The position numbers and the translations under genes were made by a program. The notes below the pieces were generated by a model. The model was not told the DNA's origin. It made no database searches and saw only the letters and a list, made by a program, of their open reading frames with translations. Source: Pseudomonas putida (GTDB lineage Bacteria > Pseudomonadota > Gammaproteobacteria > Pseudomonadales > Pseudomonadaceae). From it: a stretch of 64,000 nucleotides of DNA. Location: positions 1 through 64,000 of the forward strand of contig CP047152.1 of the NCBI GenBank assembly GCA_041879295.1. The letters run 5' to 3'. Shown piece after piece: positions 13,247 to 61,797 of the stretch (positions are counted from its first letter, which is position 1; the number at the start of each line of letters is the position of its first letter).

Positions 13247-13260
13247 TTACAAACATGTAA
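13247..13260. promoter_or_regulatory. TTACA-N4-TGTAA box before the first DUF2790 gene
   Basis: TTACAAACATGTAA is a perfect example of the palindrome used by copper- and zinc-responsive OmpR-type regulators (CopR/CzcR) in Pseudomonas. It lies 68 bp upstream of the ATG at 13329. The same motif stands in front of copA and other metal genes in this window. Confidence 0.75.
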
Positions 13261-13328
13261 TTCCTGGATCACGTGGATGACAGCTCCCAGTCGGTAAGCT
13301 TCACTCATGTCTTCATGGAGTAACAGAA

Positions 13329-13661
13329 ATGAACACCGCTAAAAGCATTGCCGCCCTCATGCTCGTAATCGCCTCCTCATCCGCTTTAGCTGAAGGAGGA
13401 TCTGATCGCTTACACGGAAAGATGATTCAGGCAAATGAGCAAGCAATGCGTGCCTACGCCGCTGCCAATGGAAAAAAACCACCTGAAGTGATCCATTATC
13501 GCTACGGAATGAAACTGGATGTGGCGAGAGTTATCAGTATGACTTCGCTCAAAGGTAGCTGCGACGTGATGCCGACACAGATGAATTACGAGGACTCAAC
13601 AGGTGAGTTGAAAATCCTCGAATATCGCTCTGCTGGAATTAACTGTAGAGGTCAAAACTGA
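13329..13661 (+). CDS. DUF2790-family small secreted protein, copy 1
   Basis: The 110-residue product begins with a signal peptide ending ALA/EGG near residue 21. It carries the DUF2790 pattern YGMKLDVARV near 59-68, a cysteine (C78), the YEDSTGEL stretch and a second cysteine near the C-terminus (C107), probably a disulfide pair. The family has no established biochemical role and in pseudomonads is often metal-regulated. GGAG before the ATG supports the start. Two relatives lie at 47536 and 61386. The upstream TTACA box suggests control by CopR or CzcR. Confidence 0.85.
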   Translation: MNTAKSIAALMLVIASSSALAEGGSDRLHGKMIQANEQAMRAYAAANGKKPPEVIHYRYGMKLDVARVISMTSLKGSCDVMPTQMNYEDSTGELKILEYRSAGINCRGQN

Positions 13662-13698
13662 CCGAAGGGACAGGGTAAGTCTTGGAGTAAGCTGACCA

Positions 13699-13720
13699 CG
13701 ACCAGCGCTGCAGCTGGTCG
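13699..13720. terminator. Hairpin between convergent genes
   Basis: CGACCAGC and GCTGGTCG form a perfect 8-bp stem with a 6-base loop. It lies between the plus-strand DUF2790 gene and the minus-strand copper operon. There is no T-run on either side, so terminator function is a guess. Confidence 0.35.
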
Positions 13721-13758
13721 GCTGGCCGGCAGAAGCCCTTCCCCCGGGGCATCTTGCA

Positions 13759-14214
13759 TTACGTGTCAGGATAACTGGCAACTACTTGATCGTCCCCACT
13801 CTTGGTGAGGCCGATGACTTGATAGGCGTGTTTCATGCCATCAACCTCCATACCTGGTGAGCCAGCGGGCATGCCAGGTACCGCGACGCCTGCCAGGTCG
13901 TTGCGCTTTATGAGCTCCTGCACCTGGGCTGCGGGGACGTGACCTTCCACAAACTTGCCATCGATAACCGCGGTGTGACACGAAGCCAGCCTCGGAGCTA
14001 CTCCTAGCTCTTGCTTCACCGCCCTCATGTCCGTTTCAACGTGGTCGACGACCTTGAAGCCGTTTGCCTCCAAGTGCGCTATCCATTTCTTACAGCAACC
14101 GCAATTAGCGTCCCGGTGCACATCGATAGTCAGGGGCTCCGCAGCAAAGGCGGCTGAGGCGATTAGAAGTGACGCTGCGGTACTTAAACCGAGGAAGCGG
14201 CGCTTACTTGTCAT
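13759..14214 (-). CDS. copG: DUF411 periplasmic metal-binding protein (CopG-like)
   Basis: Members of DUF411 bind copper through a CGCC motif and occur in copper resistance operons. The 151-residue product starts with a basic signal region (MTSKRRFLGLSTAASLL) and has the motif DANCGCCKKW soon after the mature start. The ATG at 14214 was chosen because it begins the signal peptide; the longer frame adds an implausible leader. It overlaps the upstream cytochrome gene by 11 bp and is the last gene of the minus-strand cop operon. Confidence 0.85.
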   Translation of the reverse strand: MTSKRRFLGLSTAASLLIASAAFAAEPLTIDVHRDANCGCCKKWIAHLEANGFKVVDHVETDMRAVKQELGVAPRLASCHTAVIDGKFVEGHVPAAQVQELIKRNDLAGVAVPGMPAGSPGMEVDGMKHAYQVIGLTKSGDDQVVASYPDT

Positions 14215-14983: not shown

Positions 14984-14992
14984 GTTGAGTTC

Positions 14993-16435: not shown

Positions 16436-18394
16436 TCATTCGTCCACGCGGACTTCTCGGAACATGCCCATCTCCATGTGGTACATGAGGTGACAGTGAT
16501 AGGCCCAGCGCCCGAGTGCATCTGCGGTTACGCGATAGCTTCGTTTCGAGCCAGGCGGCATATCGATCGTGTGTTTTCGCACCATGAAATTGCCGTCCTC
16601 ATCCTCCAGGTCACTCCACATGCCGTGCAGATGGATGGGGTGAGTCATCATGGTGTCGTTGACCAAGGTAATACGCAGGCGCTCGCCGTACTTGAGCCGC
16701 AGCGGCTCTGCGTCAGAAAACTTGATCCCATCGAAGGACCAAGCGAACTTTTCCATATGCCCGGTAAGGTGCAGTTCGATTGTCCGGCCAGGTTCCCGGC
16801 CGTCAGGGTCGATGAAGGTGCTACGCAAATCCGAATACGTGAGAACCCGACGCCCGTTATCGCGAAGCCCGATCCCCGGATCGCTCAGCTTTGGCGTAGG
16901 GGTCATGGTCTGCATATCGACCAGAGGGTTGTTTGTTTCGGAGGCGGGATGGTTCTGCATGGCACCGCTGGCGGCCATATTGCTTTGGTCCATACCGGTC
17001 ATGTTGCCGTGGTCCATGCCAGCCATCTTGCTATGGTCCATACCGGCCATGCTGCCGTGGTCCATGCCAGCCATCTTGCTATGGTCCATACCGGCCATGC
17101 TGCCGTGGTCCATGCCAGCCATCTTGCTATGGTCCATACCGGCCATGCTGCCGTGGTCCATGCCAGCCATCTTGCTATGGTCCATACCGGCCATGCTGCC
17201 GTGGTCCATGCCAGCCATCTTGCTGTGGTCCATACCGGCCATGCTGCCGTGATCCATGCCACCCATGCTGCCGTGGTCCATCCCCATATCACTCATGGAG
17301 ATGAGAGGCCTTGGATCTACAGCCGGCACCGGTGCCTGCAGGCCCTCACGGACAGCCAAGGTACCCCTTGAATAGCCGGTGCGATCCATGGATTGAGCAA
17401 AGATGGTGTAAGCCTGCTCGTTTTCAGGCTCGACAATGACATCGTAGGTTTCAGCAACGGCAATCCGGAATTCATCGATCGACACTGGCTTAACGTACTG
17501 ACCGTCGGCTGCGACAACCGTCATTTTCAAGCCGGGGATCCGCACGTCGAAATAGGTCATCGCCGAGCCATTGATAAAGCGAAGCCGGATTTTCTCCCCT
17601 GGCTTGAAGATTCCCGTCCAGTTCCCATTTGGCGCCTGGCCGTTCATGAGGTAGGTGTAGGTGTGCCCGCTCACGTCAGCGAGATCGGTTGGGCTCATCT
17701 TCATCTCGGCCCACATCTTTCGATCGGCCACAGCAGCAGACCAACTTTTCTCGCTCACGTCGTCGACGAAGTCGCCAACGGTGCGCTTGTGGAAGTTGTA
17801 ATAGTCCGACTGTTTTTTGAGCTTGGACATAACCCGCGCCGGGTCTTCGTCGGTCCAATCACTCAGCATGACGACATAGTCACGATCGTAGGTGAAAGGC
17901 TCTGGATCCTTGGCATCAATCACCAGCGCACCGTAAACACCGACCTGCTCCTGGAAGCCCGAATGGCTGTGGTACCAGTAGGTGCCGTTCTGGTGGACCT
18001 TGAACTTGTACTCGTACATGCCGTCGGGAGCGATGCCATGGAAGCTTAGACCCGGCACGCCGTCCATATTCGCCGGCAGGATGATGCCGTGCCAGTGGAT
18101 GGACGTGTCCTGCTTCAAGCGGTTGCGAACCCGTAGCGTGACCGTGTCGCCTTCGCGCCAACGGAGTATTGGTCCTGGCAGCGAACCGTTGATGGCCATC
18201 GCCGTTCGAGCTGCCCCGGTAATGTTCACCGGGAGCTCCCCGATGTACAGGTCAAAATCGGTGCCGGTCAGTACGTTAGGCTGGCCAGGGCTGGTTACGG
18301 CCCAGACCGGCGCGCGCCACATGCCCAGCCCACCCAGTAGTCCGGTAGCAGCCAGGCCTTTGACGAATGAACGTCTCGTGGTTTTGCTTTGCAT
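16436..18394 (-). CDS. copA: Periplasmic multicopper oxidase CopA
   Basis: CopA/PcoA oxidises Cu(I) and binds extra copper in the periplasm. The 652-residue protein begins with a Tat signal (TTRRSFVKG). It carries the four multicopper oxidase motifs: HWHG, WYHSH, HPIHLHG and [12 protein letters not shown]. Between the second and third lies a long Met/His insert built of tandem [16 protein letters not shown] units, encoded by a 48-bp DNA repeat. The ATG at 18394 was chosen because it starts the Tat signal. A perfect TTACA-N4-TGTAA box lies about 160 bp upstream. Confidence 0.96.
17021..17260 (-). repeat. 48-bp tandem repeat inside copA, five units
   Basis: Five 48-bp units, at 17021, 17069, 17117, 17165 and 17213, encode 16 residues each (two octapeptides MDHSKMAG and MDHGSMAG). 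The first four are identical or nearly so; the last has a few substitutions. Degenerate partial units flank the array on both sides. The length is a multiple of three, so unit gain or loss keeps the frame. Confidence 0.95.
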
Positions 18395-18555
18395 GCCGTT
18401 GCGTCCAATCAGGTAGATCGCTGATATCCAGACTGCGGGATCCGCAGCCATCTGGTTTCAATTGAGCTCCCCCAAGCCTCGTAGACTTTCGCCAAAGCAC
18501 AAGGATTGCGGGAGGCAATACCCCGAAAGCTGACATAGTTCAGATTCCGGGGTGA

Positions 18556-18569
18556 TTACATTTCTGTAA
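18556..18569. promoter_or_regulatory. Cop box upstream of copA
   Basis: TTACATTTCTGTAA is a perfect TTACA-N4-TGTAA palindrome between copA (minus strand, start 18394) and the stop of the small gene at 18577. It is the expected CopR binding site for the copA operon. Confidence 0.85.
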
Positions 18570-18576: not shown

Positions 18577-18783
18577 TCAGCAGCTCTCGTGGCCGGGGTG
18601 CTTTTGGCTTTGGGCGGTAACAGGAGCCTCTGCTTTTTTCTCCTGAGCAACCTGGTAAGCCTGCATGGAAGATGCACGTGCAGCTTCCATCCTGGCGAAG
18701 GTGCGATCCGCGCCGCCTTCAGCCAGGGCGAGGCTCGCCATGCCGAAGGTGACTACCATCACAATCGCTTTGATCATGTTCAT
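18577..18783 (-). CDS. Small periplasmic PtrA-like protein
   Basis: The 68-residue product is a signal peptide (MNMIKAIVMVVTFGMASLALA) followed by a short charged mature segment, EGGADRTFARMEAARAS, and a C-terminus KHPGHESC with a possible metal-binding His/Cys tail. This EGG-(A/F)-(D/E)R-T start after the cleavage site is shared with the protein at 51553 and resembles the PtrA N-terminal family. AGAGGAAA precedes the ATG. It stands upstream of copA on the same strand and diverges from copRS, so copper induction is likely. Confidence 0.75.
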   Translation of the reverse strand: MNMIKAIVMVVTFGMASLALAEGGADRTFARMEAARASSMQAYQVAQEKKAEAPVTAQSQKHPGHESC

Positions 18784-18949
18784 TTGCGTTTCCTCTAAGG
18801 GTCAGTTTCGCCTGATTGGCGCCGTTCACAGTGCTCAAGCTAGCTACCCGGCACTGTCAGCAAGCTGAGCCCGACATTACTTTTCCGTCAGCTTCTGGTT
18901 GGGTGCCTTTTTTGCTGCACACTGAAGGGCATCCAAGGGGGCGCAGCAG

Positions 18950-19627
18950 ATGAAATTACTCGTAGCCGAAGATGAGCCAAAAATCGGGGCCTACCTGCAG
19001 CAAGGGCTGACGGAGGCAGGCTTTACCGTCGATCGTGTGGTCACAGGGACCGACGCGCTGCAATACGCTTTGAGCGAGGCGTATGACCTGCTGATTCTTG
19101 ATGTAATGATGCCGGGGCTAGACGGCTGGGAGGTGCTGCGGATGGTACGTGCGGCAGGGAAAGAGGTCCCAGTCTTGTTTTTGACGGCCCGTGATGGCGT
19201 GGACGATCGCGTGAAAGGGTTAGAACTCGGGGCTGACGATTACCTGGTCAAACCCTTTGCATTCTCGGAACTGCTAGCGCGTGTGCGCACTTTGCTGCGA
19301 AGAGGCAGCAGTGGCTATGCTCAGACCACTATGAAGATGGCTGACCTGGAGGTAGACCTGCTTAAGCGCCGGGCCACCCGAAATGGCAAGCGGATCGACC
19401 TCACAGCCAAGGAGTTCTCCTTACTGGAACTACTCATGCGCCGACGCGGCGAGGTACTGCCGAAGTCCCTGATCGCATCGCAGGTGTGGGATATGAACTT
19501 CGACAGCGACACTAACGTGATCGAGGTTGCTGTTCGTAGGTTGCGGGCCAAGATTGATGACGATTTCGCCCCCAAGCTCATACATACAGTTCGTGGCATG
19601 GGCTATCTGATGGATGTTCCCGAGTAA
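18950..19627 (+). CDS. copR: Copper-responsive OmpR-family response regulator
   Basis: The 225-residue protein has a receiver domain with phospho-acceptor D51 and switch lysine in DDYLVKPF near 97-104. A C-terminal winged helix follows ([26 protein letters not shown]). It activates copper genes from TTACA-N4-TGTAA boxes, one of which lies before copA. The stop overlaps the copS start by one base (TAATG), so the pair is translationally coupled. It diverges from the small gene at 18577 and the cop operon. The name CusR is equally acceptable. Confidence 0.93.
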
Positions 19628-21033
19628 TGCGCGCCCAATCGTCGCTCGTTAAACGCCTTACCCTCATGTTCATGTTCGCGGTCATCGCCGTATTGGTCGT
19701 TGCCGGCGTGAGCTTCTACATGCTCAGTCAGCACCATTTCCAGATGCTGGATGAGCAAGCCCTGGCCGAGAAACTCGAATCCACCCGGCACATCCTTTCA
19801 CTTTCAGCAGCACGTGATGAACTTGAGGATCAGGAGCCTCAACTGCGTGCTTTGTTGGGGGCTCATCAGGACCTTTCTGCGGAGATTCTTGATGCTGACG
19901 GTACTGTCCTGTTCTCGGACTCCAAGGCATCCCGCATCCCTGAGCGCTTTAAGCAGGCCTCTTCTGGCGCCGTTTGGGACTGGCAAATCGACTCGCGGAA
20001 CTTCCGGGGGATTACCTCTCAACTGGCTATAGCGCAGGCGCAGGCGCCGGTAACAGTCATGTTGATGCTGGATGTCACCAGCCATGCCCACTTTTTCAAG
20101 ACGCTGCAATGGTGGTTCGGCATTGGCTTGGTCATCAGCGCTCTGGTTAGTGCAGGATTGGGGTGGATCGTGGCCAAGAGCGGTCTTCGGCCGGTTGGGC
20201 AGATCACCAAGGTGGCGACATCCATGTCTGCCCGGTCCCTTCGCGAGCGAATTCCATTGGAGCCCGTGCCGCTTGAATTGCAGGAGCTGATCCTCTCCTT
20301 CAACGGAATGCTTGCACGCCTGGAAGACGCGTTCGTCCGGCTATCAAACTTCTCAGCCGACATCGCACATGAGCTGCGGACTCCGGTAAGTAATCTTCTG
20401 ACGCATACCGAAGTCGTTCTGACCAAAAAACGCGACCTCGATGCCTACGAAGACAACCTCTACTCCAATCTTGAAGACCTCAAGCGCATGTCGCGCATGA
20501 TCGATGACATGCTGTTCCTGGCAAAAGCTGATAACGGCTTGATCATCCCCGAGCAGGTTGATATCGATCTGGTCGGGCTAGTGTCCAGACTGATTGAGTA
20601 CTACCAGCTTGCAGCCGAAGACCGAAGCATTCGGCTTGCCCTTCAAGGCGAAGGTACGATCCGTGGTGACCGGCTAATGATTGACCGGGCGGTTTCCAAC
20701 ATTCTATCCAACGCTTTGCGCTATACCCCCGAAGGCCACGATATCGCCGTCCGGATTGTCGAGGCGGCTGATCAAGTGAACCTGTCCGTCCAGAACAATG
20801 GGGCCACGATTGATCCGGAACATATCAACAAAATCTTCGACCGGTTCTATCGCGCTGACCCTGCAAGGCGGGAAGGAAGCCCAAGCAACGCCGGCTTGGG
20901 TCTGGCCATAACGCGTTCGATCATCGAGGCTCATGGTGGGCGAATTTGGTGTACCTCCGCTGACGGCGTGACGAGTTTTCACATCGCTCTGCCGCACGCC
21001 AAACAATCCACTTCCAAGCCTCAAACGGCTTAA
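19627..21033 (+). CDS. copS: Copper-sensing histidine kinase
   Basis: The 468-residue membrane kinase has TM1 at about 10-33, a periplasmic sensor loop, TM2 at about 163-185, a HAMP region, the H-box FSADIAHELRTPVSNL with H248, and the N and G boxes (NILSNALRY, GLGLAITRSI). The sensor loop should bind Cu or Ag in the periplasm, as in CusS/CopS. It forms an operon with copR and probably reads into the cus genes downstream (36 bp to the next start). Confidence 0.93.
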   Translation: MRAQSSLVKRLTLMFMFAVIAVLVVAGVSFYMLSQHHFQMLDEQALAEKLESTRHILSLSAARDELEDQEPQLRALLGAHQDLSAEILDADGTVLFSDSKASRIPERFKQASSGAVWDWQIDSRNFRGITSQLAIAQAQAPVTVMLMLDVTSHAHFFKTLQWWFGIGLVISALVSAGLGWIVAKSGLRPVGQITKVATSMSARSLRERIPLEPVPLELQELILSFNGMLARLEDAFVRLSNFSADIAHELRTPVSNLLTHTEVVLTKKRDLDAYEDNLYSNLEDLKRMSRMIDDMLFLAKADNGLIIPEQVDIDLVGLVSRLIEYYQLAAEDRSIRLALQGEGTIRGDRLMIDRAVSNILSNALRYTPEGHDIAVRIVEAADQVNLSVQNNGATIDPEHINKIFDRFYRADPARREGSPSNAGLGLAITRSIIEAHGGRIWCTSADGVTSFHIALPHAKQSTSKPQTA

Positions 21034-21069
21034 TGCTCATTTCATGCGTGTAACCTATACTCGGCCATC

Positions 21070-21417
21070 ATGAACCGGCTCCTACGACTGTTCACCATCC
21101 TGCTTCTAATCGCATCGCTTCCTCTCAACGGCATGGCGGGAGTCGACTCAGCCATTGAACCATGTCCCATGCAAACCATGGGGATGGAGATGATGGCGGG
21201 GATGGATCACGATTGTTGCCAGGATACTGATCCAGGATCAGCTGCCGACCACTCCAAAGCCTGCAAAGTGGGCCAGGAGTGTAGAACCGCGAGCACAGTT
21301 CAGGTCGAAATAATTAACCCCACGCTCACCTATTCTGCGCCTAGGCCAGTAGATACCTATGCGGTGAGCCTCGTAAACAGGGCGCCTCCTGACCCTTGGC
21401 GGCCACCCCGCGCCTGA
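21070..21417 (+). CDS. Small secreted Cys/Met/His-containing protein before cusC
   Basis: The 115-residue product has a signal peptide and a mature part with clustered Cys, Met and His (CPMQTMGMEMMAGMDHDCC, then KACKVGQEC). It ends PPDPWRPPRA, a proline-rich tail like that of CzcI/CopL-type proteins encoded beside heavy-metal RND systems. The function is not established. The cysteines and methionines could bind Cu(I). It lies between copS and cusC and is likely cotranscribed with both. Confidence 0.65.
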   Translation: MNRLLRLFTILLLIASLPLNGMAGVDSAIEPCPMQTMGMEMMAGMDHDCCQDTDPGSAADHSKACKVGQECRTASTVQVEIINPTLTYSAPRPVDTYAVSLVNRAPPDPWRPPRA

Positions 21418-43508: not shown

Positions 43509-45206
43509 TCAGAGGCCAGAATAAGAGCCTCCGACAAAGGGCTTACAAGGGGCAGTGAAATCCAGCGCTGAGCGATACGAAGACGTCTGGACGTTCATCA
43601 TGCCGAGCACGGTGTGGAACAGGTTGTCGTGGCTCAGCGGTGACGTGGTTTGAGCTTTCAAACAACCCACGTTGACCTTTTCGCTCTTCGCGAGCGAGTC
43701 AGACATCCAAAGTACCAACGGCACCTTTGTTTGCTCGTCAGGAGCCATCGCGTAAGGCAGCCCGTGTAGATAGAGCCCACCCTCCCCCAGCGATTCGCCG
43801 TGGTCCGAAACGTACATCAGCGCAGTGTCGAACTTGGTGTTGGCCGCCAGGATATCGATGAGATTTGCAGTCACATAATCGGTGTAGAGGATTGAGTTGT
43901 CGTAGGCATTGACCACCTCCTCCTGCTTACATTTGTCGAGCTCGTTGGTCTCGCACACCGGTGCGAATTTCTTGAATTGCGAGGGGTAGCGCTTGTAGTA
44001 GGCCGGGCCGTGACTGCCTTTGTAGTGGAGCACCAGGACAGCATCGCCTTCCTGGCGCTTGATGAAGTCTTGCATCTCCGTGAGCAGCACCCCGTCCTTA
44101 CACTCCTCGCTGGTGCACAGTTGGGAATCCGCGTGAGAGGCAGCCTTGTGGTTGGGAACCCTGTCGCAGACCCCTTTGCACCCCGAGTTGTTGTCAGTCC
44201 ACATGACACTGATGCCAGCGCGTTGAAGCACGTCGAGCAGCCCTTCTCGGCTCTTGGCCAAGCCATCTTTGTACTGGGCCTTACCCACGTCCAGGAACAT
44301 GCATGGCAGCGAGACCGCGGTAGCGGTACCGCAGGAGCTCACGTTCGTGAAGCTAATGACATTTCGCTTTTCTAGTTCCGGATTCGTTTCACGGGAGTAG
44401 CCGTTGAGGGAGAAGTTGGCGGAGCGAGCGGTCTCTCCTACTGCCAGTACCAGCAGCCTGGGTTTACGAGCCGCACCCTGTCGATTAACTACCGCATCAG
44501 TACCAATGGCCGTCAGCGTTTTAGGTGAGGCCAGCTGACGCTTCAGGTACCCATGGCCAGCCGCAAACAAGTTGGTAGGTACCAGAATCAGCCGGATCTC
44601 CCGATTGTTGCGCAGCAAGGAGGCATACGACTGGTACTGACTCAACGCGATGCCAGATAAGGTCAACAGAGCGAGCGACAGAGCAATGAACCTGCTGACC
44701 AAAGCTTTGGCCCAAGGCTTGCGCCGGAGGGGAACCCGGGCAATCAGGTAGACGGGCAACACCCCAACCATTGCGACCCAAAGACCGAGCTTCCAATTCA
44801 GCAGCTCGGTTGCCTCAGCGACGTCGGTCTCCACAACGTTGGTGAACATTGTGTAATCGATCACGATGCCGTAGGCATTCATGAAGTAACTCGCAAAAGA
44901 CGCGCTGATCAGTACCAGGCACAGTATGGGTTTGGCCAGCCGCCCCCATGACAGCAAGCTCAGAACGGTAAACACCCATGCGAATACTATGACTGGGAGG
45001 CTAGCCGCTAGCTGCCAGTTCACTTCATCGGTTTTGAATACCAGCTTCCAGAGCACGTTCCAGAGCTCAGCGTTCGCGAATAGCAGTAACCAAAAAGTCA
45101 CCAGGCCGATTAGCAAATTAGTACTGATGCCTTTCTGCCGCGCATTGCGAATAGCAAAGATCCATTTGCTTAACAGGGTGTGAACAATGGATTTGGAAGG
45201 TGTCAT
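43509..45206 (-). CDS. eptA: Lipid A phosphoethanolamine transferase EptA
   Basis: EptA adds phosphoethanolamine to lipid A in the periplasm and lowers the negative surface charge, which protects against polymyxin and metal cations. The 565-residue protein has about five N-terminal membrane segments and a sulfatase-fold catalytic domain: VGETARSANFSLNGY with the metal-ligand Glu, the catalytic Thr in SSCGTATAVSLPC, and SDHGESLGE. Several Cys pairs suit the periplasmic domain. The ATG at 45206 is preferred over TTG at 45212. A degenerate TTACA box lies 230 bp upstream. Confidence 0.93.
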   Translation of the reverse strand: MTPSKSIVHTLLSKWIFAIRNARQKGISTNLLIGLVTFWLLLFANAELWNVLWKLVFKTDEVNWQLAASLPVIVFAWVFTVLSLLSWGRLAKPILCLVLISASFASYFMNAYGIVIDYTMFTNVVETDVAEATELLNWKLGLWVAMVGVLPVYLIARVPLRRKPWAKALVSRFIALSLALLTLSGIALSQYQSYASLLRNNREIRLILVPTNLFAAGHGYLKRQLASPKTLTAIGTDAVVNRQGAARKPRLLVLAVGETARSANFSLNGYSRETNPELEKRNVISFTNVSSCGTATAVSLPCMFLDVGKAQYKDGLAKSREGLLDVLQRAGISVMWTDNNSGCKGVCDRVPNHKAASHADSQLCTSEECKDGVLLTEMQDFIKRQEGDAVLVLHYKGSHGPAYYKRYPSQFKKFAPVCETNELDKCKQEEVVNAYDNSILYTDYVTANLIDILAANTKFDTALMYVSDHGESLGEGGLYLHGLPYAMAPDEQTKVPLVLWMSDSLAKSEKVNVGCLKAQTTSPLSHDNLFHTVLGMMNVQTSSYRSALDFTAPCKPFVGGSYSGL

Positions 45207-45696
45207 TATCAAACTCTGGAAGCTGCTTATCCATGGCGGTAGCTATGGAGTTAGCGGGAGCTACAAGGCAAACCGTCGACAGATGCTGAGCGATTGCGCA
45301 ATGTGCGGAGCGTCAGAGGCCTTAGGCCCCTAGGCGTTGGGGACGCTTAGTATGTGTGAGGCATAGGGATAAAAAGAGAAATGAATCTCGCTGAGCGCAT
45401 TATTTCCGGGACCTGATAACGACACGATGACCTCGGGATTACAATGCTGACAGAAATCCAATTACTGCTGTTTTGATTGTCATTGATCACGCTATGATCA
45501 AAATTAGGGGGATACTACCCACCAAAAGCAATGCTCCGCTCAGCTAGATAAATTTAATTTCACAAACAAAACGGTTTCGTTTTGTCGTAGGCTAATTTTG
45601 AACTTTCAATTCAACTTACAAGTCTTTCTCGCGAGCAGAATATTATTTTCAACTTTTGCTCGTTAATATGTCACCCATCAATGAGGGGCGAATACC
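45207..45696. other. Intergenic region upstream of eptA and the zinc-ribbon gene
   Basis: This 490-bp divergent region has no convincing gene. It is AT-rich towards 45480-45680 and holds the TTACA-type box at 45439-45452, about halfway, so the box could serve either flanking gene. Confidence 0.6.
45439..45452. promoter_or_regulatory. Degenerate TTACA-N4-TGTAA box upstream of eptA
   Basis: TTACAATGCTGACA keeps the TTACA half and the four-base spacer; the other half reads TGACA. A very similar sequence, sharing 23 of 31 bases over the wider stretch 45427-45457, stands at 54849-54879 before the gtrA operon. Both loci modify the envelope. Confidence 0.6.
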
Positions 45697-47535: not shown

Positions 47536-47862
47536 TTAACGGCTATTAACACACTCGCCCTTCACCAGGTAGCGAACCATGTGCAGTTCGCCTTTCGAGT
47601 CTTCGTAGGTCATCATGCTTCTTACATTACCGCAGTACCGCACACTGGGTGATACATACACCAACTTACCAACGTCCAGGTCCATGCCATAGGCGTAGTC
47701 TTCTAGTTGAGGCATGGGCTTTTTTACGCGTTGAGCATAATCCGCTGTAGCCTCTCTAGCAGTACGCTCGATGCGTTTATTGATCTCCATACCGCTTTGG
47801 GCATTGGCTGTTAGTGATGTAAAGAGCAAAAACACGGCGATCGCTGATACAGTAGTGTTCAT
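47536..47862 (-). CDS. DUF2790-family small secreted protein, copy 2
   Basis: The 108-residue product has a signal peptide ending ANAQ, then the family pattern YAYGMDLDVGKLVYV, a Cys at about 77, YEDSKGEL and a second Cys near the C-terminus. It is a paralogue of the proteins at 13329 and 61386. AAGGGA precedes the ATG. An intrinsic-terminator-like hairpin ends only 15 bp before that ATG, within a structured leader, so its expression may be set by attenuation or read-through. TTACA/TGTAA half-sites lie about 210-240 bp upstream. Confidence 0.85.
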   Translation of the reverse strand: MNTTVSAIAVFLLFTSLTANAQSGMEINKRIERTAREATADYAQRVKKPMPQLEDYAYGMDLDVGKLVYVSPSVRYCGNVRSMMTYEDSKGELHMVRYLVKGECVNSR

Positions 47863-47877
47863 AAGAAGTCCCTTAAT

Positions 47878-48050
47878 AAAAAAGCGCCCGTAGGGGGGCG
47901 CTAAAATTCACCTACCAAAGGAGCGTATGGTTTACAGGTGAATGCACTGGCGCGAACAACTGCTCGGTGCTCTTGCCAAGCTGCTTTGAAATGAGACAAT
48001 TTCCAAAGCAGCGATGCCTCTTCCGCTGCCCTTAAACTAGCAAAGGAGGC
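47878..48050 (-). ncRNA. Candidate small RNA or attenuator leader before DUF2790 copy 2
   Basis: Read on the minus strand this segment contains a hairpin with stem GCTGCTTTG (48012-47980), then a pair ATTCACCT/AGGTGAAT (47943-47906), then an intrinsic terminator AGCGCCC/GGGCGCT followed by six T (47902-47878). Two copies of CTCCTTTG followed by CTAG or GTAG lie in the loops, like anti-Shine-Dalgarno sequences. The terminator stands between a likely promoter and the DUF2790 start. The 5' end is a guess. Confidence 0.5.
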
Positions 48051-48072
48051 TAACACCAAGATGATCGGGCAA

Positions 48073-48101
48073 TTACAATTTGGACATGTAATAGATTGTA
48101 A
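48073..48101. promoter_or_regulatory. Cluster of TTACA/TGTAA half-sites
   Basis: TTACA at 48073-48077 is followed by TGTAA at 48087-48091 and 48097-48101. The two TGTAA copies are spaced 10 bp, one helical turn, as in OmpR-family direct-repeat sites. It lies upstream of the minus-strand leader and DUF2790 gene. Confidence 0.55.
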
Positions 48102-48363
48102 GATAATTATTCGAGAGAATATCGAGCCGCCACGTGAACTAATTTGCAGAAAGGCGCTGCGGTTTGCGGCCGTGCATGGGGTCTGCCTGCGTGGCGCCCT
48201 CGATCCAAGGCCAGTACCAGTCCTTGCAAGCTAACGACCGAAATGCTGCCTGTCCTGGCCGATTCCACCTGCCAGGCGAATCTGTCATACACCGCCGCAG
48301 GCCCCAGAATCCGCTATGCTTAGGGGTGGAGCCTGCATGACTGTCAGAAATCTTGCGGCTACA

Positions 48364-48377
48364 TTACAAATTTGTAG
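48364..48377. promoter_or_regulatory. TTACA-N4-TGTAA box upstream of czcR
   Basis: TTACAAATTTGTAG matches the palindrome at 9 of 10 fixed bases and lies 174 bp before the czcR start. It may be an autoregulatory CzcR site. The surrounding 48102-48551 holds no convincing gene; a minus-strand frame at 48107-48292 shows no family pattern. Confidence 0.65.
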
Positions 48378-48551: not shown

Positions 48552-49226
48552 ATGCGCGTTCTAGTTGTGGAAGACGAAATTAAAACTGCCGAATATCTTC
48601 AGCAGGGCCTATCCGAAAGCGGGTATGTCGTAGATATCGTGCACAACGGTGTAGATGCTCTGCACTTGTTCAACACTAATGTCTATTCGTTGGTCCTCCT
48701 GGACGTGAACCTCCCGGGTATCGACGGCTGGGACCTGCTGGAAACCATCCGTAAGACCAGCCGGGTCCGCATCATCATGCTGACCGCCCGCGGACGCATC
48801 AATGACAAGCTCAAGGGCTTGGACGGCGGCGCGGATGACTACCTTGTGAAGCCATTCGAATTCCCTGAGCTGCTTGCTCGCATCCGTTCGCTGCAACGCC
48901 GTGGTGATGAGTTAGTCGAGAAGAGCTCGCTGAAAATTGCCGATCTGGAACTCGACTCCGTCCGCCATCGCGTCTTCCGCGGTGGCACACGCATCGATCT
49001 CACCACCAAGGAATTTGCGCTTCTGCACCTGCTCATGAGCCGAACGGGCGAAGCGCTGACTCGCTCTCAGATCATCTCGTTGGTCTGGGATATGAATTTC
49101 GATTGCGACACCAATGTCATCGATGTAGCCATCCGGCGCTTGCGCTCGAAGATCGATGAGCCGTTTGAAACCAAGCTCATTCACACGCTTCGTGGCGTTG
49201 GGTACGTTTTTGAGGAACGCGCATGA
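48552..49226 (+). CDS. czcR: Zinc/cadmium/cobalt-responsive response regulator CzcR
   Basis: The 224-residue OmpR-family regulator has phospho-acceptor D51 (SLVLLDVNLPG), the switch lysine in [12 protein letters not shown] and a winged-helix output domain (TKEFALLHLLM, VIDVAIRRLRSKID). In Pseudomonas CzcR activates czcCBA and related genes. The call rests on its place next to czcD, cadA-like and czcA genes, since CopR and CzcR are close homologues. The stop overlaps the czcS start as ATGA. Confidence 0.88.
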   Translation: MRVLVVEDEIKTAEYLQQGLSESGYVVDIVHNGVDALHLFNTNVYSLVLLDVNLPGIDGWDLLETIRKTSRVRIIMLTARGRINDKLKGLDGGADDYLVKPFEFPELLARIRSLQRRGDELVEKSSLKIADLELDSVRHRVFRGGTRIDLTTKEFALLHLLMSRTGEALTRSQIISLVWDMNFDCDTNVIDVAIRRLRSKIDEPFETKLIHTLRGVGYVFEERA

Positions 49227-50641
49227 GGCCATTCAGCCTGGCTGCAAAGCTGGGGTTAAAAGTTGGGTTGATGAGCGCAGCGTTGCTGCTTCTGTTCGCC
49301 ACCTTTGGCTATCTGATGGTAGGCAAGGCTCTGGAAAGAAATGCCAGAGCAGACCTGGAAGTAAAGATGGCGGGGATGGCTCACAACCTGTCCACCATCC
49401 CGGACATCTCCGGCGTCAACGCGGATGCGCATCAGCTTGTCGATTTGGTCATGGGCCACAACAACCTGTATGTGAGCATATTCGATACCTCACAGAATCA
49501 GACTCCCCTGCTCTCGATTGGCTCGAAACAGGTCAATCTGGAGGTGCACAAGTTTCAGCCGGCGGCCCAGCCCAAAGAGCACGAATGGCGTGATACGCAG
49601 GACCGTCCTCTGCTGAGTGCTTCTCGAATCATGCGTTTGGGCGATGGAACAGAGGTCAGCGTCTATATGACCATGGACCAGTCATCCAGTGAGGCGCTGC
49701 TCGATGCGTTGCTGACCTGGGCCTTGATGATGTCCCCCGTCATCCTCGCACTGATCTTGGCCATTGGCTGGTGGACTGTGCGCAGAGGCCTGCTACCACT
49801 GACCAAGTTCCTCAAGATCGCCTCGAAAATCTCAACCGAGAGCCTCGACCATCGCCTTCCAACTGATGGGATGCCGGCAGAACTCAAAATGCTCGCCGAC
49901 GGCATCAACATCATGCTGGCTCGCCTGGATGATGGGGTTCAGCAGCTCTCGCAGTTTTCTGACGACCTTGCTCACGAACTTCGAGCACCGCTTTCCAACC
50001 TGATGGGCAAGGCCCAGGTTGCCTTGACCAGAGAACGATCGCTTTCCGAGTACCGGGAGGTTCTGGAGTCGTGCACAGAAGAGCTGGACCGCATGAGCCG
50101 CATGGTTTCCGACATGCTGTTCTTGGCCCAGGTCAGTCATCCAGCATCAATGGTGGAGTTCGAATCCGTCTCCTTGGTCGACGAGGTTCAGCGAGTGTGC
50201 GAGCTCTTCAGCATTTCAGCAGAAGAAGGCGAGATTCAGCTGCAGATCTCCGGCAGTGATGACGTGGTGCGCGGGAATCGCCTGATGGTTCAACGTGCCG
50301 TCTCGAATCTGGTCTCGAACGCGATCCGTTACTGCCCTCGCGGCCGCACGGTCTACGTTAAGGTGCAGCATAGTGCGAGCGGTACGACGTTGAGTGTCGG
50401 CAACCCCGGCCGTGGTATTGCCAAGGAACACCACGCGCACTTGTTTGAGCGGTTCTACCGTGTGGACAAGAGCCGAGCACGGAGCGAAGGCGGTACCGGT
50501 CTTGGCTTGGCCATTGTGCAGTCGATCATGAGTCTGCACCAGGGATCGGCGAGCGTGGAGGTGACCGAAGAAAACTTCACCTGGTTCCACCTTCACTTTC
50601 CGGAAGCCCAGCAAATGCAGCCGGCAATGACCGCCGCTTAA
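49223..50641 (+). CDS. czcS: Metal-sensing histidine kinase CzcS
   Basis: The 472-residue kinase has two membrane segments (about 10-33 and 165-185) around a periplasmic sensor, a HAMP domain, the H-box FSDDLAHELRAPLSNL with H251, and catalytic boxes NLVSNAIRY and GTGLGLAIVQSI. It is paired with czcR by a 4-bp overlap. It probably senses periplasmic Zn or Cd; the ligand cannot be read from the sequence. A terminator follows. Confidence 0.9.
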   Translation: MRPFSLAAKLGLKVGLMSAALLLLFATFGYLMVGKALERNARADLEVKMAGMAHNLSTIPDISGVNADAHQLVDLVMGHNNLYVSIFDTSQNQTPLLSIGSKQVNLEVHKFQPAAQPKEHEWRDTQDRPLLSASRIMRLGDGTEVSVYMTMDQSSSEALLDALLTWALMMSPVILALILAIGWWTVRRGLLPLTKFLKIASKISTESLDHRLPTDGMPAELKMLADGINIMLARLDDGVQQLSQFSDDLAHELRAPLSNLMGKAQVALTRERSLSEYREVLESCTEELDRMSRMVSDMLFLAQVSHPASMVEFESVSLVDEVQRVCELFSISAEEGEIQLQISGSDDVVRGNRLMVQRAVSNLVSNAIRYCPRGRTVYVKVQHSASGTTLSVGNPGRGIAKEHHAHLFERFYRVDKSRARSEGGTGLGLAIVQSIMSLHQGSASVEVTEENFTWFHLHFPEAQQMQPAMTAA

Positions 50642-51444: not shown

Positions 51445-51458
51445 TTACGGAATTGTAA
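51445..51458. promoter_or_regulatory. TTACA-N4-TGTAA box before the PtrA-like gene
   Basis: TTACGGAATTGTAA has one mismatch to the palindrome and extends to ATTACGGAATTGTAAT at its edges. It lies 94 bp before the ATG at 51553. The divergent gene at 50699-51286 starts 158 bp away. Confidence 0.7.
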
Positions 51459-51552
51459 TTATTGACTCACCTTGTCGTTAGCTTCGCGTTCCTAAACTAC
51501 AAACCAACAAAGGCCGCTAATCAGGTTGGCCTAGTATGAACCGAGGTTCACA

Positions 51553-51774
51553 ATGAAATTTGTCAAATCTATCGCTATTGGCAGCCTGCTGCTGGGTCTC
51601 ATGGGTACCGCTTACGCTGAAGGCGGCTTCGAGCGAACGAAACAGTTCAACGAGAACTTCCGAACCGAACAGGCTCGCCTATGGAGCGATGACTCTTCGG
51701 ACCAGAACAAACAACAAGTCGCTCAAGAGCAAAAGAAAGAAAGCAAGGATGGTAAGGAACAAGCCGACAATTAA
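51553..51774 (+). CDS. Small secreted PtrA-like protein
   Basis: The 73-residue product has a signal peptide (MKFVKSIAIGSLLLGLMGTAYA) and a charged mature part starting EGGFERTKQFNENFR, rich in Lys, Glu and Gln at the end. The EGG(F/A)(E/D)RT start is shared with the protein at 18577 and places both in the PtrA N-terminal group. No enzymatic motif is visible. The upstream box suggests metal control, and a bidirectional terminator follows. Confidence 0.72.
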   Translation: MKFVKSIAIGSLLLGLMGTAYAEGGFERTKQFNENFRTEQARLWSDDSSDQNKQQVAQEQKKESKDGKEQADN

Positions 51775-51856: not shown

Positions 51857-53311
51857 TTAGCCTTCGTTCTTGCGAGGCGTTTCCGCATTGCTTTCTCCGG
51901 CCAGACCCTCGGCACCTTGTGCGGGGCGTTTCCAATGGCACAGCAGGAGCTGGCTGGCGTTCGCTTCGGTGATCGATGTGCAAGCTAGATCAGCGGGCAG
52001 ACCATCCTTGCTGTCTCGCAAGCGCCTGGACAGATAGAACGAGCCATCCCGCGGCCACTTGGCAGGATCCTTGATGTTCTCGGACTTCCCGCTGCTGTAA
52101 AACTCCGACGAGTATGAGCGGCGGCCAGGATAGATCAGGGGAGCGGAATGAGCAGACTGCACATTGAGCCAGGCTTGAACCACATCCCGCTGATTCTGAG
52201 GGCGCTCCTCTAGTACCCCGGCGTAGATGATGCCCGCACCGATGATTGGCAACACCAATGCGCTCGCAGCGGCAGCCCAGGTGGTCTTCGGGCCAACTTC
52301 GCTGACCCGTGCAGACAGCAGCAATGCCCACGCTGGCAGCGCGGGTAGCAGGTAGGTCCACAGAATGTTGCCTGCAAATGTGAAGAAGACCGGTGTCGCC
52401 AAGGCCCACAGCCAGAGGTAGGCTTTGAAGCGCTGCATCGATCCACGCTTGCGGATCAACAGTGGTAGAAACAAGGCCCATGGCAGTAGCGACAATCCGA
52501 GCTGGATCCAGATGCTGCCGTACGGCTTGGCATGAGCACTACCATAGAGGTCCCCTGCCCAGTTACTGACGACGTAGCGGCTCCAGTGCTCACCAACGAA
52601 GAAGTACTCCATGAAGCCGGGCGTTTTCATCTCGGCCGCGACATACCATGGCACGGATATACCGAACATGAGTACAAGGCCGCTAATCCAGGGAAGCCTC
52701 AGTACCCGTCCCCATTCCTTGTAGATAACGAACCAGGCGAATGCCGGCGCCCCCATAAGCACCAGGGTCAGCGGCCCTTTGGCAAGCAAGCCCAGCCCGA
52801 GACCTGCGAACATCAGGTAGGCATCCGCCTTGCTGGCGCACTTCATCCAACGCCAGAAACCGTAGCTGGCCAGCAGAATCGAGAACGACAAAACAGGGTC
52901 AGTCAGCACAACACCGCTGGAGACCAGGCCAAGTGTGGTGCTGGAAAAAATAATGGCAGCCCAGATGCCGGCGTTACGAGAAATCTGCTGCGTGCCGAGT
53001 TTGATGATGATGAAACAGCTTGCCAGGTGGAGTAGCCACGCTGGGAAGCGCGCAGCGAACTCGTTAACGCCGAAGACCGTCATGCTCGCGGCCTGGGTCC
53101 AGAAGGACAACGGAGGCTTGCCCCAGAACGGTACCCCGTAGTCGAACATGGGCGTGATCCAGTCATTCAACTCGACCATCTTGCGAGCCATTTCAGCGTA
53201 ACGGGCCTCAGATGTGTCCATCAGCGGGTAGATGCCCAGCCCCACCAAACGCAATAGCAAAATCGAACCCAGGACCCACCACAGCGTCCTCTCGTTCTTC
53301 AGGTTCAGCAT
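51857..53311 (-). CDS. ArnT-like lipid-linked sugar glycosyltransferase
   Basis: This 484-residue integral membrane protein belongs to the PMT/ArnT (GT83-like) group that moves a sugar from a polyprenyl carrier to an envelope acceptor such as lipid A. The first periplasmic loop has DTSEARYAEMARKM, with the catalytic-type Asp and Glu, and GVPFWGKPPLSFW; about ten membrane helices follow, then a soluble C-terminal part. It lacks the aminoarabinose pathway genes nearby, so the sugar is unknown. It overlaps the GtrB-like gene by 7 bp. Confidence 0.85.
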   Translation of the reverse strand: MLNLKNERTLWWVLGSILLLRLVGLGIYPLMDTSEARYAEMARKMVELNDWITPMFDYGVPFWGKPPLSFWTQAASMTVFGVNEFAARFPAWLLHLASCFIIIKLGTQQISRNAGIWAAIIFSSTTLGLVSSGVVLTDPVLSFSILLASYGFWRWMKCASKADAYLMFAGLGLGLLAKGPLTLVLMGAPAFAWFVIYKEWGRVLRLPWISGLVLMFGISVPWYVAAEMKTPGFMEYFFVGEHWSRYVVSNWAGDLYGSAHAKPYGSIWIQLGLSLLPWALFLPLLIRKRGSMQRFKAYLWLWALATPVFFTFAGNILWTYLLPALPAWALLLSARVSEVGPKTTWAAAASALVLPIIGAGIIYAGVLEERPQNQRDVVQAWLNVQSAHSAPLIYPGRRSYSSEFYSSGKSENIKDPAKWPRDGSFYLSRRLRDSKDGLPADLACTSITEANASQLLLCHWKRPAQGAEGLAGESNAETPRKNEG

Positions 53312-54288
53312 TTCTTACCCTCGATCGAAGCCATCGAAGGGTGGAGTGACACGGGATCTGCCTTGTTGCTGTGCTTCAGGAAATAGAGAGGCCGGCGCTT
53401 CACTTCCGCGAGTGTCACGCCCAGGTACTCCCCCACCATGGCGACACCGACGCACATGAATGAAGCCATTCCGACGATCAGGTGATGGATGTCGAAACTG
53501 CCTGCCACAAGCGACGCAAGCATGTAGCAGATGCTGGAGACGAAAAGACCGAAACTGATGAGGCTGAAAATGCGCAGTGGTTTGCGAGAGAAGCTGACGA
53601 TGCTCTCGATGGCCAGATTGAACAGGCCAGCTGCATTCCATTTGGTGCTCCCGGCATGGCGAACAGTGCGATTGTAGGGCAGTTCGATGGTACGAAAGCC
53701 TACCCAGCCGATCATGCCTTTGAGAATCCTGGAGCGTTCATCCAGGGCCCGCAGGGCTGCCAGCGGCGCAGGCCCAATCAATCGGAAATCGCTGACATCG
53801 GCCGGCATGTCCACCTTCTCCACCAGGCGCTGCATGACCCAGTAGTAAGCCCGGGCACTCATGCGCTTGAACCACGAATCACCGATTCTCAGGTTGCGCT
53901 GCATGTTCACCACGTCGTAGCCGCGTTGCCAGTAGTCCACCATGGCCGCGATGAGCTCTGGTGGATCCTGCAGGTCGACATCAATGAAGATCAGCGCACT
54001 GCCACGGGCATGGTCTATCCCGGCGCTCAGTGCAGCCTCTTTGCCGAAGTTGCGACTCAGGGACAGGCAACGTACAGATGACCCATCCTGATAGTGGCGA
54101 AGAATGTCGGCCGTCCGGTCATTACTGCCGTCGTCGACATAGAGGATTTCGCAGGAGACGGGTAAGCGCTTCACCACGCGGGTGATTCGCTGGTGGAACT
54201 CGGGGATGGTTTCCTCTTCCTGGAAGCAAGGGACCACGATGGTTAACAAGGGATCAGGGCGCTCGGGAAAGCGATGTAATGTCTGCAT
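53305..54288 (-). CDS. GtrB/ArnC-like polyprenyl-phosphate glycosyltransferase
   Basis: The 327-residue protein has a GT2 domain (LTIVVPCFQEEETIPEF, YVDDGSNDRT, then IDVDLQDPPEL with the metal-binding Asp pair) and two C-terminal membrane helices (about 225-250 and 260-285). It is expected to attach a sugar to undecaprenyl phosphate for the ArnT-like transferase. The ATG at 54288 begins the normal N-terminus. It overlaps the gtrA-like gene by about 35 bp. Confidence 0.9.
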   Translation of the reverse strand: MQTLHRFPERPDPLLTIVVPCFQEEETIPEFHQRITRVVKRLPVSCEILYVDDGSNDRTADILRHYQDGSSVRCLSLSRNFGKEAALSAGIDHARGSALIFIDVDLQDPPELIAAMVDYWQRGYDVVNMQRNLRIGDSWFKRMSARAYYWVMQRLVEKVDMPADVSDFRLIGPAPLAALRALDERSRILKGMIGWVGFRTIELPYNRTVRHAGSTKWNAAGLFNLAIESIVSFSRKPLRIFSLISFGLFVSSICYMLASLVAGSFDIHHLIVGMASFMCVGVAMVGEYLGVTLAEVKRRPLYFLKHSNKADPVSLHPSMASIEGKKC

Positions 54289-54673
54289 GATTGAATGTCC
54301 AAAAACGATGTGCAATGAATCCAAGTGCAGTGAGGCTTAAGGTCACTACGACTTGGGAGATGAGCGGTGACAGATTCGACTTGATGAGGAACCACATACC
54401 CACGCCATTGCCGAAGTTTGTGGTTAACGCGACCAGTGCAAACCTGACAGGCTGAAACTTACGAGAGCCATCTGCCACAAAACAGAGCGCCCTATTTCCA
54501 ATGAAGCTCGCGATTGCGCCAACCATGCCGCCACAGATACTGGCCAGTAACGGAGTAACGAATTCTGTCGTAACCAGCAATAGGAACACCGCATAATGGA
54601 CTCCCGTTGCTATGAAGCCGATCCCCAGATAACGAATCAGTAAGGTAGTAAGAGGTGGGGTTTGATTTTCCAT
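54254..54673 (-). CDS. GtrA-family flippase-like membrane protein
   Basis: The 139-residue protein has four membrane segments and the GtrA pattern (LIRYLGIGFIATGVHYAVFL, ASFIGNRALCF, ALGFIAHRFWTF). GtrA proteins are thought to flip polyprenyl-linked sugars across the inner membrane. With the GtrB-like and ArnT-like genes it forms a complete three-gene charge, flip and transfer module. The start at 54673 is preferred over TTG at 54679. It is the first gene of the operon; a TTACA-type box lies 188 bp upstream. Confidence 0.88.
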   Translation of the reverse strand: MENQTPPLTTLLIRYLGIGFIATGVHYAVFLLLVTTEFVTPLLASICGGMVGAIASFIGNRALCFVADGSRKFQPVRFALVALTTNFGNGVGMWFLIKSNLSPLISQVVVTLSLTALGFIAHRFWTFNHADITSLSRAP

Positions 54674-54860
54674 GCCCAAAGCCTATGGAGGCAAAGGTGA
54701 AAAAATAGTGAACTAAATGTAAATGCGTAATTAGCCGAATCTATATATGGTAAGTAACAAGTCGGCGCACTAGGCTAGCACGCTACAATATCAGAGGGAT
54801 TGCCTGAAAATTACGCTTTCGAAATAAAAGCCTTCCGATAACGCATGCATGACCCGTGGA

Positions 54861-54874
54861 TTACAATGTTGACA
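54861..54874. promoter_or_regulatory. Degenerate TTACA-N4-TGTAA box upstream of the gtrA operon
   Basis: TTACAATGTTGACA differs in one spacer base from the eptA box at 45439, and the similarity extends to 23 of 31 bases (54849-54879). It lies between the minus-strand gtrA operon and the plus-strand LysR gene. Confidence 0.6.
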
Positions 54875-59093: not shown

Positions 59094-59100
59094 GAGAAAA

Positions 59101-59135: not shown

Positions 59136-59185
59136 TTCTACTTCAGGTCATTTCCCTGCTTAGCTTCATGATTGAAGCTCAGGGA

Positions 59186-61183: not shown

Positions 61184-61324
61184 AACTCGTCCCTTCTGGG
61201 GTCAAGGCTTCCAATTGCCCTCTGCAGTTGGGGAGCCGTCTCTGTTGGTTGGCTAAGATCTATTGCACGGTTTGCCCGAGCCCAGGCGTTAACATTTCGA
61301 AGCTATGGGGTATCGGGCGTAATA

Positions 61325-61351
61325 AAAAATGCCAGGCACTGCCTGGCATTT
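61325..61351 (-). terminator. Terminator of DUF2790 copy 3
   Basis: AAATGCCAGGC and GCCTGGCATTT pair around a three-base loop. On the minus strand a T-run follows, about 35 bp after the DUF2790 stop, so it ends that gene before the ATPase gene. Confidence 0.85.
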
Positions 61352-61385
61352 ATGAATTCTCTAATTGTTCTGTTCAAATCGTTTA

Positions 61386-61709
61386 CTACTTGTTGTTGAT
61401 GCATTGCGAATACATCGAGTAACGAACAGTCTTGAGCGTGCCCTGGGAGTCCTCGAAGGTCATCAACCGTGGATAGACCTGGCAGGTACGGGGGTCCTGC
61501 GACTGACGTACGAATTTCGCAACGTCTATCTTCATGCCATATTTGTAATCCTGAATCTCTGGCATTGGCTTGCCATTTTTCTCCGCGTACTTGGCCACTG
61601 CGGTCTGGTGTTCCTTGGTGTATTGAAGCTGCTTGCTCTCGGAGAAAGTGTTGGCCTGCGAAGCCACCGAGAAAACAACAAGTGCAGCAGCGATAATTAG
61701 CTTTTTCAT
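61386..61709 (-). CDS. DUF2790-family small secreted protein, copy 3
   Basis: The 107-residue product has a signal peptide ending SQANTF and the family pattern YKYGMKIDVAKFV, a Cys at about 76, FEDSQGTL and a final Cys (QCINNK). It is closest in layout to the copy at 47536. It has its own terminator and lies between czcA and the P1B ATPase gene, in the same orientation as both. A TTACA-type box lies 75-88 bp upstream. Confidence 0.87.
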   Translation of the reverse strand: MKKLIIAAALVVFSVASQANTFSESKQLQYTKEHQTAVAKYAEKNGKPMPEIQDYKYGMKIDVAKFVRQSQDPRTCQVYPRLMTFEDSQGTLKTVRYSMYSQCINNK

Positions 61710-61783
61710 AAAACCCTCTCAATTTCAAAACTTCTCGGGCGTAACCTTAGCAATGCATAGGCATCACCGGCATGACGAGAAAC

Positions 61784-61797
61784 TTACAATTTTGAAA
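61784..61797. promoter_or_regulatory. Degenerate TTACA box before DUF2790 copy 3
   Basis: TTACAATTTTGAAA keeps TTACA and the four-base spacer; a complementary GTAAG lies 7 bp beyond, making CTTAC...GTAAG at 61783-61803. It stands after the czcA terminator and before the DUF2790 ATG, so it would control that gene alone. Confidence 0.5.

Follow-up and report, generated by a model that had tools for sequence, protein, structure and literature searches.

Copper- and zinc-type half-site arrays as putative operators of CopR/CzcR-type regulators in Pseudomonas putida

Closely related response regulators may recognise the same DNA motif, and how their regulons nonetheless stay separate is an open question of metal homeostasis. 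It is raised by a stretch of 64,000 nucleotides of the Pseudomonas putida genome (positions 1 to 64,000 of contig CP047152.1, assembly GCA_041879295.1; hereafter the window), in which copR and czcR lie among genes for small secreted proteins and lipid A modification. An initial annotation had proposed that palindromic boxes, TTACA-N4-TGTAA, mark a single metal-responsive regulon in this stretch. Our analysis indicates that the boxes are probably operators of OmpR-family regulators of the CopR/CzcR clade, that they are for the most part directional arrays of half-sites, and that the last repeat of the array may tune the choice between copper and zinc.

All box positions named in the initial annotation hold the sequence described. 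The perfect palindromes at 13247 and 18556 are beyond chance: the 6.05-Mb genome contains nine perfect copies and none of the reversed pattern used as control. The boxes at 48364 and 51445 have one mismatch each, as reported; the box at 61784, listed as a half site, also has a single mismatch and is better than claimed. Those upstream of eptA (45439) and gtrA (54861) have two mismatches each and carry little meaning as palindromes, because such matches are common in the window (20 at up to two mismatches, against 10.7 expected; 20 was reached in 2 of 100 shuffles). The 18556 box is indeed 162-175 bp ahead of the copA start at 18394 (the gene caller's choice; a longer open reading frame begins at 18451), but it sits between copA and a PtrA-like gene on the minus strand (18577-18783). 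A one-mismatch box at 21040, absent from that annotation, was rejected as a promoter element; situated some 17 bp ahead of an ATG, it appears to be accidental.

As a genome-wide marker the palindrome performed only partly. At up to one mismatch 45 sites were found, against 23 for the reversed control; using our own simple codon-score gene caller, which missed some small genes outside the window, 29 of the 45 and 11 of the 23 were intergenic, a modest difference (8 of 9 for the perfect sites). The perfect sites lie ahead of DUF2790 copy 1, two copies of copA and czcC, and within a degraded third cop cluster; the others are beside an SDR gene (twice), before a TonB receptor and inside an open reading frame (once each). 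The one-mismatch sites include copA1, cupredoxin/copR1, a second PtrA-like/czcR pair and czcC/OprD; site 4117154 is doubtful, as it overlaps a control-pattern match. Homologues of window proteins, a set that does not include czcC and OprD, were found near 12 of the 39 sites outside the window and near 2 of the 23 control sites. Across 35 genomes of the genus the excess was again modest (53 against 22, hand-summed). The palindrome alone was rejected as a marker, since its solo perfect copies include one in the interior of an open reading frame (1807610) and one before the TonB receptor (3788429).

Alignment of the regions upstream of eptA and gtrA yielded a common element of 26 bp, without a match in shuffles, in which the half-sites GTAAT, GTCAT and GTTAT recur every 11 bp. 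The same phasing was found upstream of DUF2790 copies 1 and 2 and of the PtrA-like gene at 51553. The pattern GTAAT-N7-TCAY-N6-GNYA was built from these five sites, which fit it by construction; the left half-site was added only after the OprD and czcC sites of this genome had been inspected. The complete array is T[T/G]AC-N6-GTAAT-N6-nTCAY-N6-GNYA (36 bp), followed 12 bases further by a -10 box, TAnnnT, and the palindrome is its upstream end. Its third half-site takes the form GnCA in front of copper genes and GnTA in front of zinc genes, the differing base being position +24. Within the window, arrays with no more than one mismatch are found upstream of eptA, gtrA, two PtrA-like genes and DUF2790 copies 1 and 2; the half-sites noted earlier at 48073-48101 are present, but as part of the array at 48051-48086. 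The features of the window are as follows.

13247-13282, plus strand: copper-type array, third half-site GACA, perfect palindrome as upstream end (pattern and conservation)
13329-13661, plus strand: DUF2790 copy 1 with PtrA N-terminal domain (Pfam PF10976; NCBIfam NF041599)
16436-18394, minus strand: copA, copper-resistance multicopper oxidase (TIGR01480; longer start 18451 scanned)
18556-18569, no strand assigned: perfect palindrome without array, between copA and the PtrA-like gene (sequence)
18577-18783, minus strand: PtrA-like small secreted protein (NF041599, 72 bits against a cut-off of 31)
18855-18890, minus strand: copper-type array (GACA), one mismatch, directed at the PtrA-like gene and also close upstream of copR (pattern)
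18950-19627, plus strand: copR, heavy-metal response regulator (TIGR01387, 339 bits against a cut-off of 279)
19627-21033, plus strand: putative copS-type sensor kinase (named from its position after copR and its sequence)
43509-45206, minus strand: eptA, lipid A phosphoethanolamine transferase (family matches)
45417-45452, minus strand: zinc-type array (GTTA) of eptA, left half TGTC (pattern)
47536-47862, minus strand: DUF2790 copy 2 (sequence)
48051-48086, minus strand: zinc-type array (GTTA) of DUF2790 copy 2, left half TGTC (pattern)
48364-48377, no strand assigned: one-mismatch palindrome before czcR (partial copper-like array, 4 of 6)
48552-49226, plus strand: czcR, heavy-metal response regulator (TIGR01387, 340 bits against a cut-off of 279)
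49223-50641, plus strand: putative czcS-type sensor kinase (named from its position after czcR and its sequence)
51445-51480, plus strand: zinc-type array (GTTA), one-mismatch palindrome as upstream end (pattern; box at -108 in six genomes including this one)
51553-51774, plus strand: PtrA-like small secreted protein (resemblance only, no family match)
54254-54679, minus strand: gtrA, first gene of a putative lipid A/LPS (lipopolysaccharide) modification operon, 51857-54679 (family match)
54697-54712, minus strand: ColR box, exact published consensus (inside 54681-54730, a 50-bp identity to the P. putida PP0035 site)
54839-54874, minus strand: zinc-type array (GTTA) of gtrA, left half TGTC (pattern)
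61386-61709, minus strand: DUF2790 copy 3, beside czcA (sequence)
61762-61797, minus strand: imperfect array of DUF2790 copy 3, third half-site GATG, T at +24 (pattern)

Elsewhere in the genome the five-site pattern has seven further exact matches, five of them at two OprD porins (67910 and 2353232), a DUF2790 gene of a cop cluster and a PtrA-like gene, and beside the degraded copR. At up to one mismatch it matches 55 sites, against 18 for the reversed control. The inverted left half-site T[TGA][AT]C, which lies outside this search pattern, is present at 17 of the 55, all 17 being among 18 sites selected by hand, by locus and look, for base counts. In these 18 arrays the TAnnnT hexamer at +38 to +43 has A at +39 in 16, T at +43 in 14 and T at +38 in 11. 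Twelve of the 45 palindromes lie within a well-formed array (score 5-6 of 6), compared with 1.6% of random positions in the same sequences; 11 of the 12 are in metal loci and the twelfth (3031590) is about 7 kb from the degraded cop cluster. It is thus the directional array, and not the palindrome as first proposed, that predicts: eptA and gtrA are poor as palindromes, yet bear arrays.

The 36-bp array was searched for in 199 genomes of the genus and gave 144 matches in 81 genomes, against 5 for its reversed control (hand-summed). Six matches are in the window's own genome; of the 138 outside it, 73 were examined, comprising 32 arrays at 30 loci returned by the search and 41 arrays in 40 hand-picked stretches, chosen mostly for distinct sequences and in three cases as look-alikes of the eptA array. 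A relative of an expected family was found within 400 bp along the array direction for 70 of the 73 (tblastn, E <=1e-3): OprD porin 41, czcC 6, DUF2790 7, PtrA-like 7 (some of these matches being weak), DUF411 6 and eptA 3. The OprD, czcC and DUF411 classes had played no role in deriving the five-site pattern. In the window's own genome, an exact zinc-type array (C1:2353222-2353257) stands 63 bp before an OprD-like porin, distant from the czc clusters seen; this porin is 76% identical, in part, to the porin at 68053.

A scan of species genomes with a DUF2790 alignment returned 472 relatives, of which the best 80 were used; their 120-bp upstream regions comprise 38 distinct sequences. The box, at up to one mismatch, was present in 32 of the 38, starting at -81 to -85 (-130 to -40 scanned), while permuted half-sites of the same bases occurred in at most 3. 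In each of the 32, an unchanging TCA follows the GTAA half at a distance of one helical turn. The DUF2790 family is not uniform, however conserved this box is, and the idea that all its genes belong to the regulon was rejected. In this genome 3 of 8 copies have the palindrome (up to one mismatch) at -76 to -88 and 5 have none near their start; copy 2 has instead an array with a poor left half, and the copy at 1564374, one of those five, has a one-mismatch match at -392, within a neighbouring called gene. Among PtrA-like relatives the palindrome (up to one mismatch) is found at -86 to -108 in 13 of 16; the other three comprise a relative with two mismatches, one with the palindrome at -227 only and one without it.

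DUF2790 copy 1 is a fusion of the PtrA N-terminal domain (NF041599) to DUF2790, and a motif close to its predicted mature N-terminus, AEGG-x-[DE]-R, recurs in several PtrA-like proteins. Right before the ATG of copy 2 a GC-rich hairpin with a T run (~47868-47905, minus strand), seen by eye, resembles a terminator or attenuator; it has no Rfam match, and the Rfam scan of the whole window gave no match at gathering scores. DUF2790 appears in a paper on lanthanides (PMC11520305) that names neither CzcR nor CopR, and is also mentioned in PMC7921472 and PMC9145825.

The split at +24 was first noticed by eye in the window's own genome, where C is found at 7 of 7 cop-type arrays and T at 10 of 10 czc- or porin-type arrays (one with T, 69753, being labelled zinc-type by location only); array 3031568 has C and no metal label. 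It was then checked on the 73 foreign arrays. T was present at 57 of 57 zinc-type arrays and C at 7 of 7 copper-type arrays (6 of 6 of DUF2790 copy-1 type and the single cop-type PtrA). The DUF411 arrays, which had been given no metal beforehand, have C in 6 of 6, and those without a family have T twice and C once. When only distinct sequences were counted (48 zinc-type, 6 copper-type, 6 DUF411), the split was the same. DUF411 matches PDB entries 6wis and 6wje, which we take to be the copper protein CopG.

The base also differs within families. Among DUF2790 genes, C is found at copy 1 and at the copy in the second cop cluster, and T at copies 2 and 3; among PtrA-like genes, the one in the cop cluster has C and the ones in czc clusters T. 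This flip argues against simple ancestry. In addition, TGACAG resembles the published CopR half-site TGACA, and CGTTAT the published CzcR3 motif GTTAT. The single code earlier proposed for copper, zinc, secreted-protein and lipid A genes is retained as a shared site of CopR/CzcR type, but the C/T split makes it one scaffold with two flavours.

Seven genes of the CopR/CzcR clade were found in the genome, 55-100% identical to CopR and one of them truncated; the next best is 44% identical or lower. Both regulators of the window score above the cut-off of the heavy-metal subfamily TIGR01387, and the recognition helices of the six intact clade members are near-identical. The core TTAC-N6-GTAA (up to one mismatch, within 400 bp upstream) is present at 7 of 7 clade genes, compared with 2 of 20 other OmpR-type genes. 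Published P. putida CopR footprints and the boxes found here agree within about 10 bp at four cop promoters, gene correspondence and start codons being assumed: copR2, -96 to -58 published and -95 to -60 here; copA2, -185 to -159 and -175 to -162; copA1, -89 to -43 and -81 to -46; copR1, -144 to -110 and -150 to -115. The seven clade regulators fit as readers of the array. What the analysis shows is where the sites lie, their phasing, orientation and conservation, and how the base divides by target gene; the pairing of proteins with flavours, and the assumption that each gene is activated and not repressed, we infer.

In the mechanism we propose, half-sites on an 11-bp spacing, an inverted TTAC/TGAC followed by the direct repeats GTAAT, nTCAY and GNYA, would end just before the -10 box. 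The array would lie at about -60 to -25 from the predicted start site, with the -10 box at +38, and stand in for a -35 box, so that the bound regulators may recruit RNA polymerase in place of a good one. The invariant GTAAT core would serve all paralogues, presumably both CopR and CzcR, given how little their recognition helices differ. Which of them activates would be set by the last repeat, adjacent to the polymerase, a TGACAG-like form favouring a CopR-type (copper) and a CGTTAT-like form a CzcR-type (zinc) regulator. The arrangement resembles phased repeats of the PhoB type. It would correspond to Type II activation, as proposed for AgrR (PMC7380067).

A number of observations weigh against this mechanism. 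Two boxes at copA, 18556 and 3131104, and the one at czcR, 48364, stand before core metal genes and yet misfit the array, and the only zero-mismatch core of copR is the copA box, at -394. Six of the 38 DUF2790 upstream regions lack the box within one mismatch. The exact short arrays at 2740716 and 5022549 have no convincing downstream gene, and arrays 69753 and 3031568 no recognised one. As for the split, the array pattern admits only C or T at +24, the metal labels were taken from gene family and neighbourhood after the own-genome split had been seen, and the counts include orthologous promoters, which are no independent cases: OprD porins account for 41 of the 57 zinc-type arrays. The motif derived by chromatin immunoprecipitation for P. 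aeruginosa CzcR shares the GYAAY half and not the TTAC half. Finally, CzcR, CopR1 and CopR2 of P. stutzeri have been reported, via a review, to have nearly the same targets, and in P. paraeruginosa CzcR and CopR both act on one palindrome (PMC11195947); discrimination between copper and zinc therefore cannot be absolute.

The sharing of that palindrome, by CusR too (PMC11195947), together with the near-identical recognition helices and the many zinc-type cases that are orthologous OprD promoters, would also fit a code without discrimination, in which every array is bound equally by all regulators of the clade and the C/T difference at +24 reflects promoter ancestry without function. We consider this unlikely, although a serious possibility, as the base follows the cluster within the paralogous DUF2790 and PtrA-like families and its difference coincides with that between the published CopR (TGACA) and CzcR3 (GTTAT) motifs.

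The inclusion of lipid A remodelling under the shared code was borne out in part: eptA and gtrA carry zinc-type arrays, but gtrA has a second input besides its array (54839-54874), an exact ColR element, YYNASNNYTTTTTSAC (54697-54712), which is positioned nearer the gene. The surrounding 54681-54730 is identical over 50 bp to the PP0035 site, one of the ColR footprints in P. putida (PMC2689224). The ColR box of that paper is a T-tract element, separate from the array. ColR-dependent genes respond to zinc (PMC4074579), and lipid A control therefore has a separate zinc-responsive input. The eptA and gtrA arrays could then belong to another OmpR-type regulator, such as ColR, with an incidental resemblance to CopR/CzcR arrays, and their unusual left half, TGTC, would agree with this. 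We find it rather improbable. No ColR consensus was found within one mismatch upstream of eptA, which has the array only; the half-site bases and the phasing of both genes agree with zinc-type arrays; and the eptA arrays of three other genomes have the canonical TGAC, so that TGTC at the window eptA is probably a variant. The eptA/gtrA element was found in 11 of 119 genomes, with both genes in this and five others, eptA only in one and neither gene in four.

That the palindromes are chance matches in AT-rich promoter DNA is hardly credible: two-mismatch matches are common in the window and 16 of the 45 sites at up to one mismatch lie inside called genes, the perfect 1807610 included, but real and reversed counts are far from equal (9 against 0 for the perfect palindrome, 144 against 5 for the array) and the box upstream of DUF2790 is conserved.

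Some further observations concern the cop and czc loci. The partial array of the czcR box (48342-48377, minus strand) has TGACAG, a copper-type third repeat, and is oriented away from czcR; it may be linked to the published action of CopR on czcR. A small His/Met-rich protein after copS (21070-21417) bears a weak resemblance to CopL (23.8 bits against a cut-off of 40). In the second cop cluster two near-identical tandem open reading frames (C1:3131583-3135023), by eye resembling group II intron reverse transcriptases, lie between the PtrA-like gene and copR. The degraded third cluster (C1:3038264-3041000) contains a cytochrome c gene fragment and a copR truncated after some 158 residues next to a transposase-like open reading frame, and an exact array adjoins it.

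Shared binding by CopR-, CusR- and CzcR-type regulators (PMC11195947, PMC8469834), the CzcR3 core and the AgrR box are already known. In P. paraeruginosa one palindrome, ATTCATnnATGTAAT, serves three metal regulators with different outputs (PMC11195947); the mutant form used there, ATTACATnnATAGCCT, indicates that its left half is probably ATTACAT, and the available text gives neither downstream repeats nor a sequence rule for the metal. The P. putida CzcR3 site, aTTAC-N6-GTAAT (PMC8469834), has an identical core, and ATAAC, ATTAC and GTTAT occur in its own promoter; in the accessible part it is not extended to an array, to eptA/gtrA or to DUF2790. The CopR1/CopR2 sites, TGACA-N4-TGTCA (PMC12428095), have several half-sites per footprint of 27-47 bp at similar positions, presented, in the text at hand, as multiple TGACA-like motifs and not as phased directional repeats.

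Another close system is the AgrR box of Cupriavidus metallidurans (PMC7380067), whose regulator is related to CopR/CzcR. Its layout, ATTACA-N4-TGTAAT flanked by an in-phase direct repeat, recurs in the 12 of 45 palindromes that have both inverted and direct repeats; at eptA, gtrA and DUF2790 copy 2 the direct repeats are preserved and the inverted half is poor, and direct repeats are missing from the copA boxes. In the portion available, the direct repeat of AgrR is imperfect and occurs at some operators only, whereas the Pseudomonas array has two downstream repeats of constant phase and sequence and an inverted half that can be degenerate, and its last repeat is not the same at copper targets as at zinc targets. 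No statement of a three-repeat array, of the +24 rule or of DUF2790 as a CopR/CzcR target was found in the open-access literature, subscription papers being mostly outside the search. The three-repeat grammar in Pseudomonas, the split at +24 and the conserved array promoters of DUF2790, PtrA-like genes and eptA thus appear to be new, although absence in print is not proven.

For genome scanning the array is a much sharper tool than the palindrome, and it directs attention to little-studied conserved targets, the DUF2790 and PtrA-like proteins and eptA. We suggest tentatively, at somewhat less than even confidence, that across Pseudomonas the single base at +24 (C for copper, T for zinc) is what separates the targets of paralogous copper and zinc regulators whose recognition helices are near-identical, with DUF2790/PtrA-like proteins and EptA as core outputs. 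A one-base, promoter-proximal discriminator is directly testable by reporter fusions. If it is true, metal specificity sits in the promoter-proximal repeat, and a single mutation could switch the metal of an operon.

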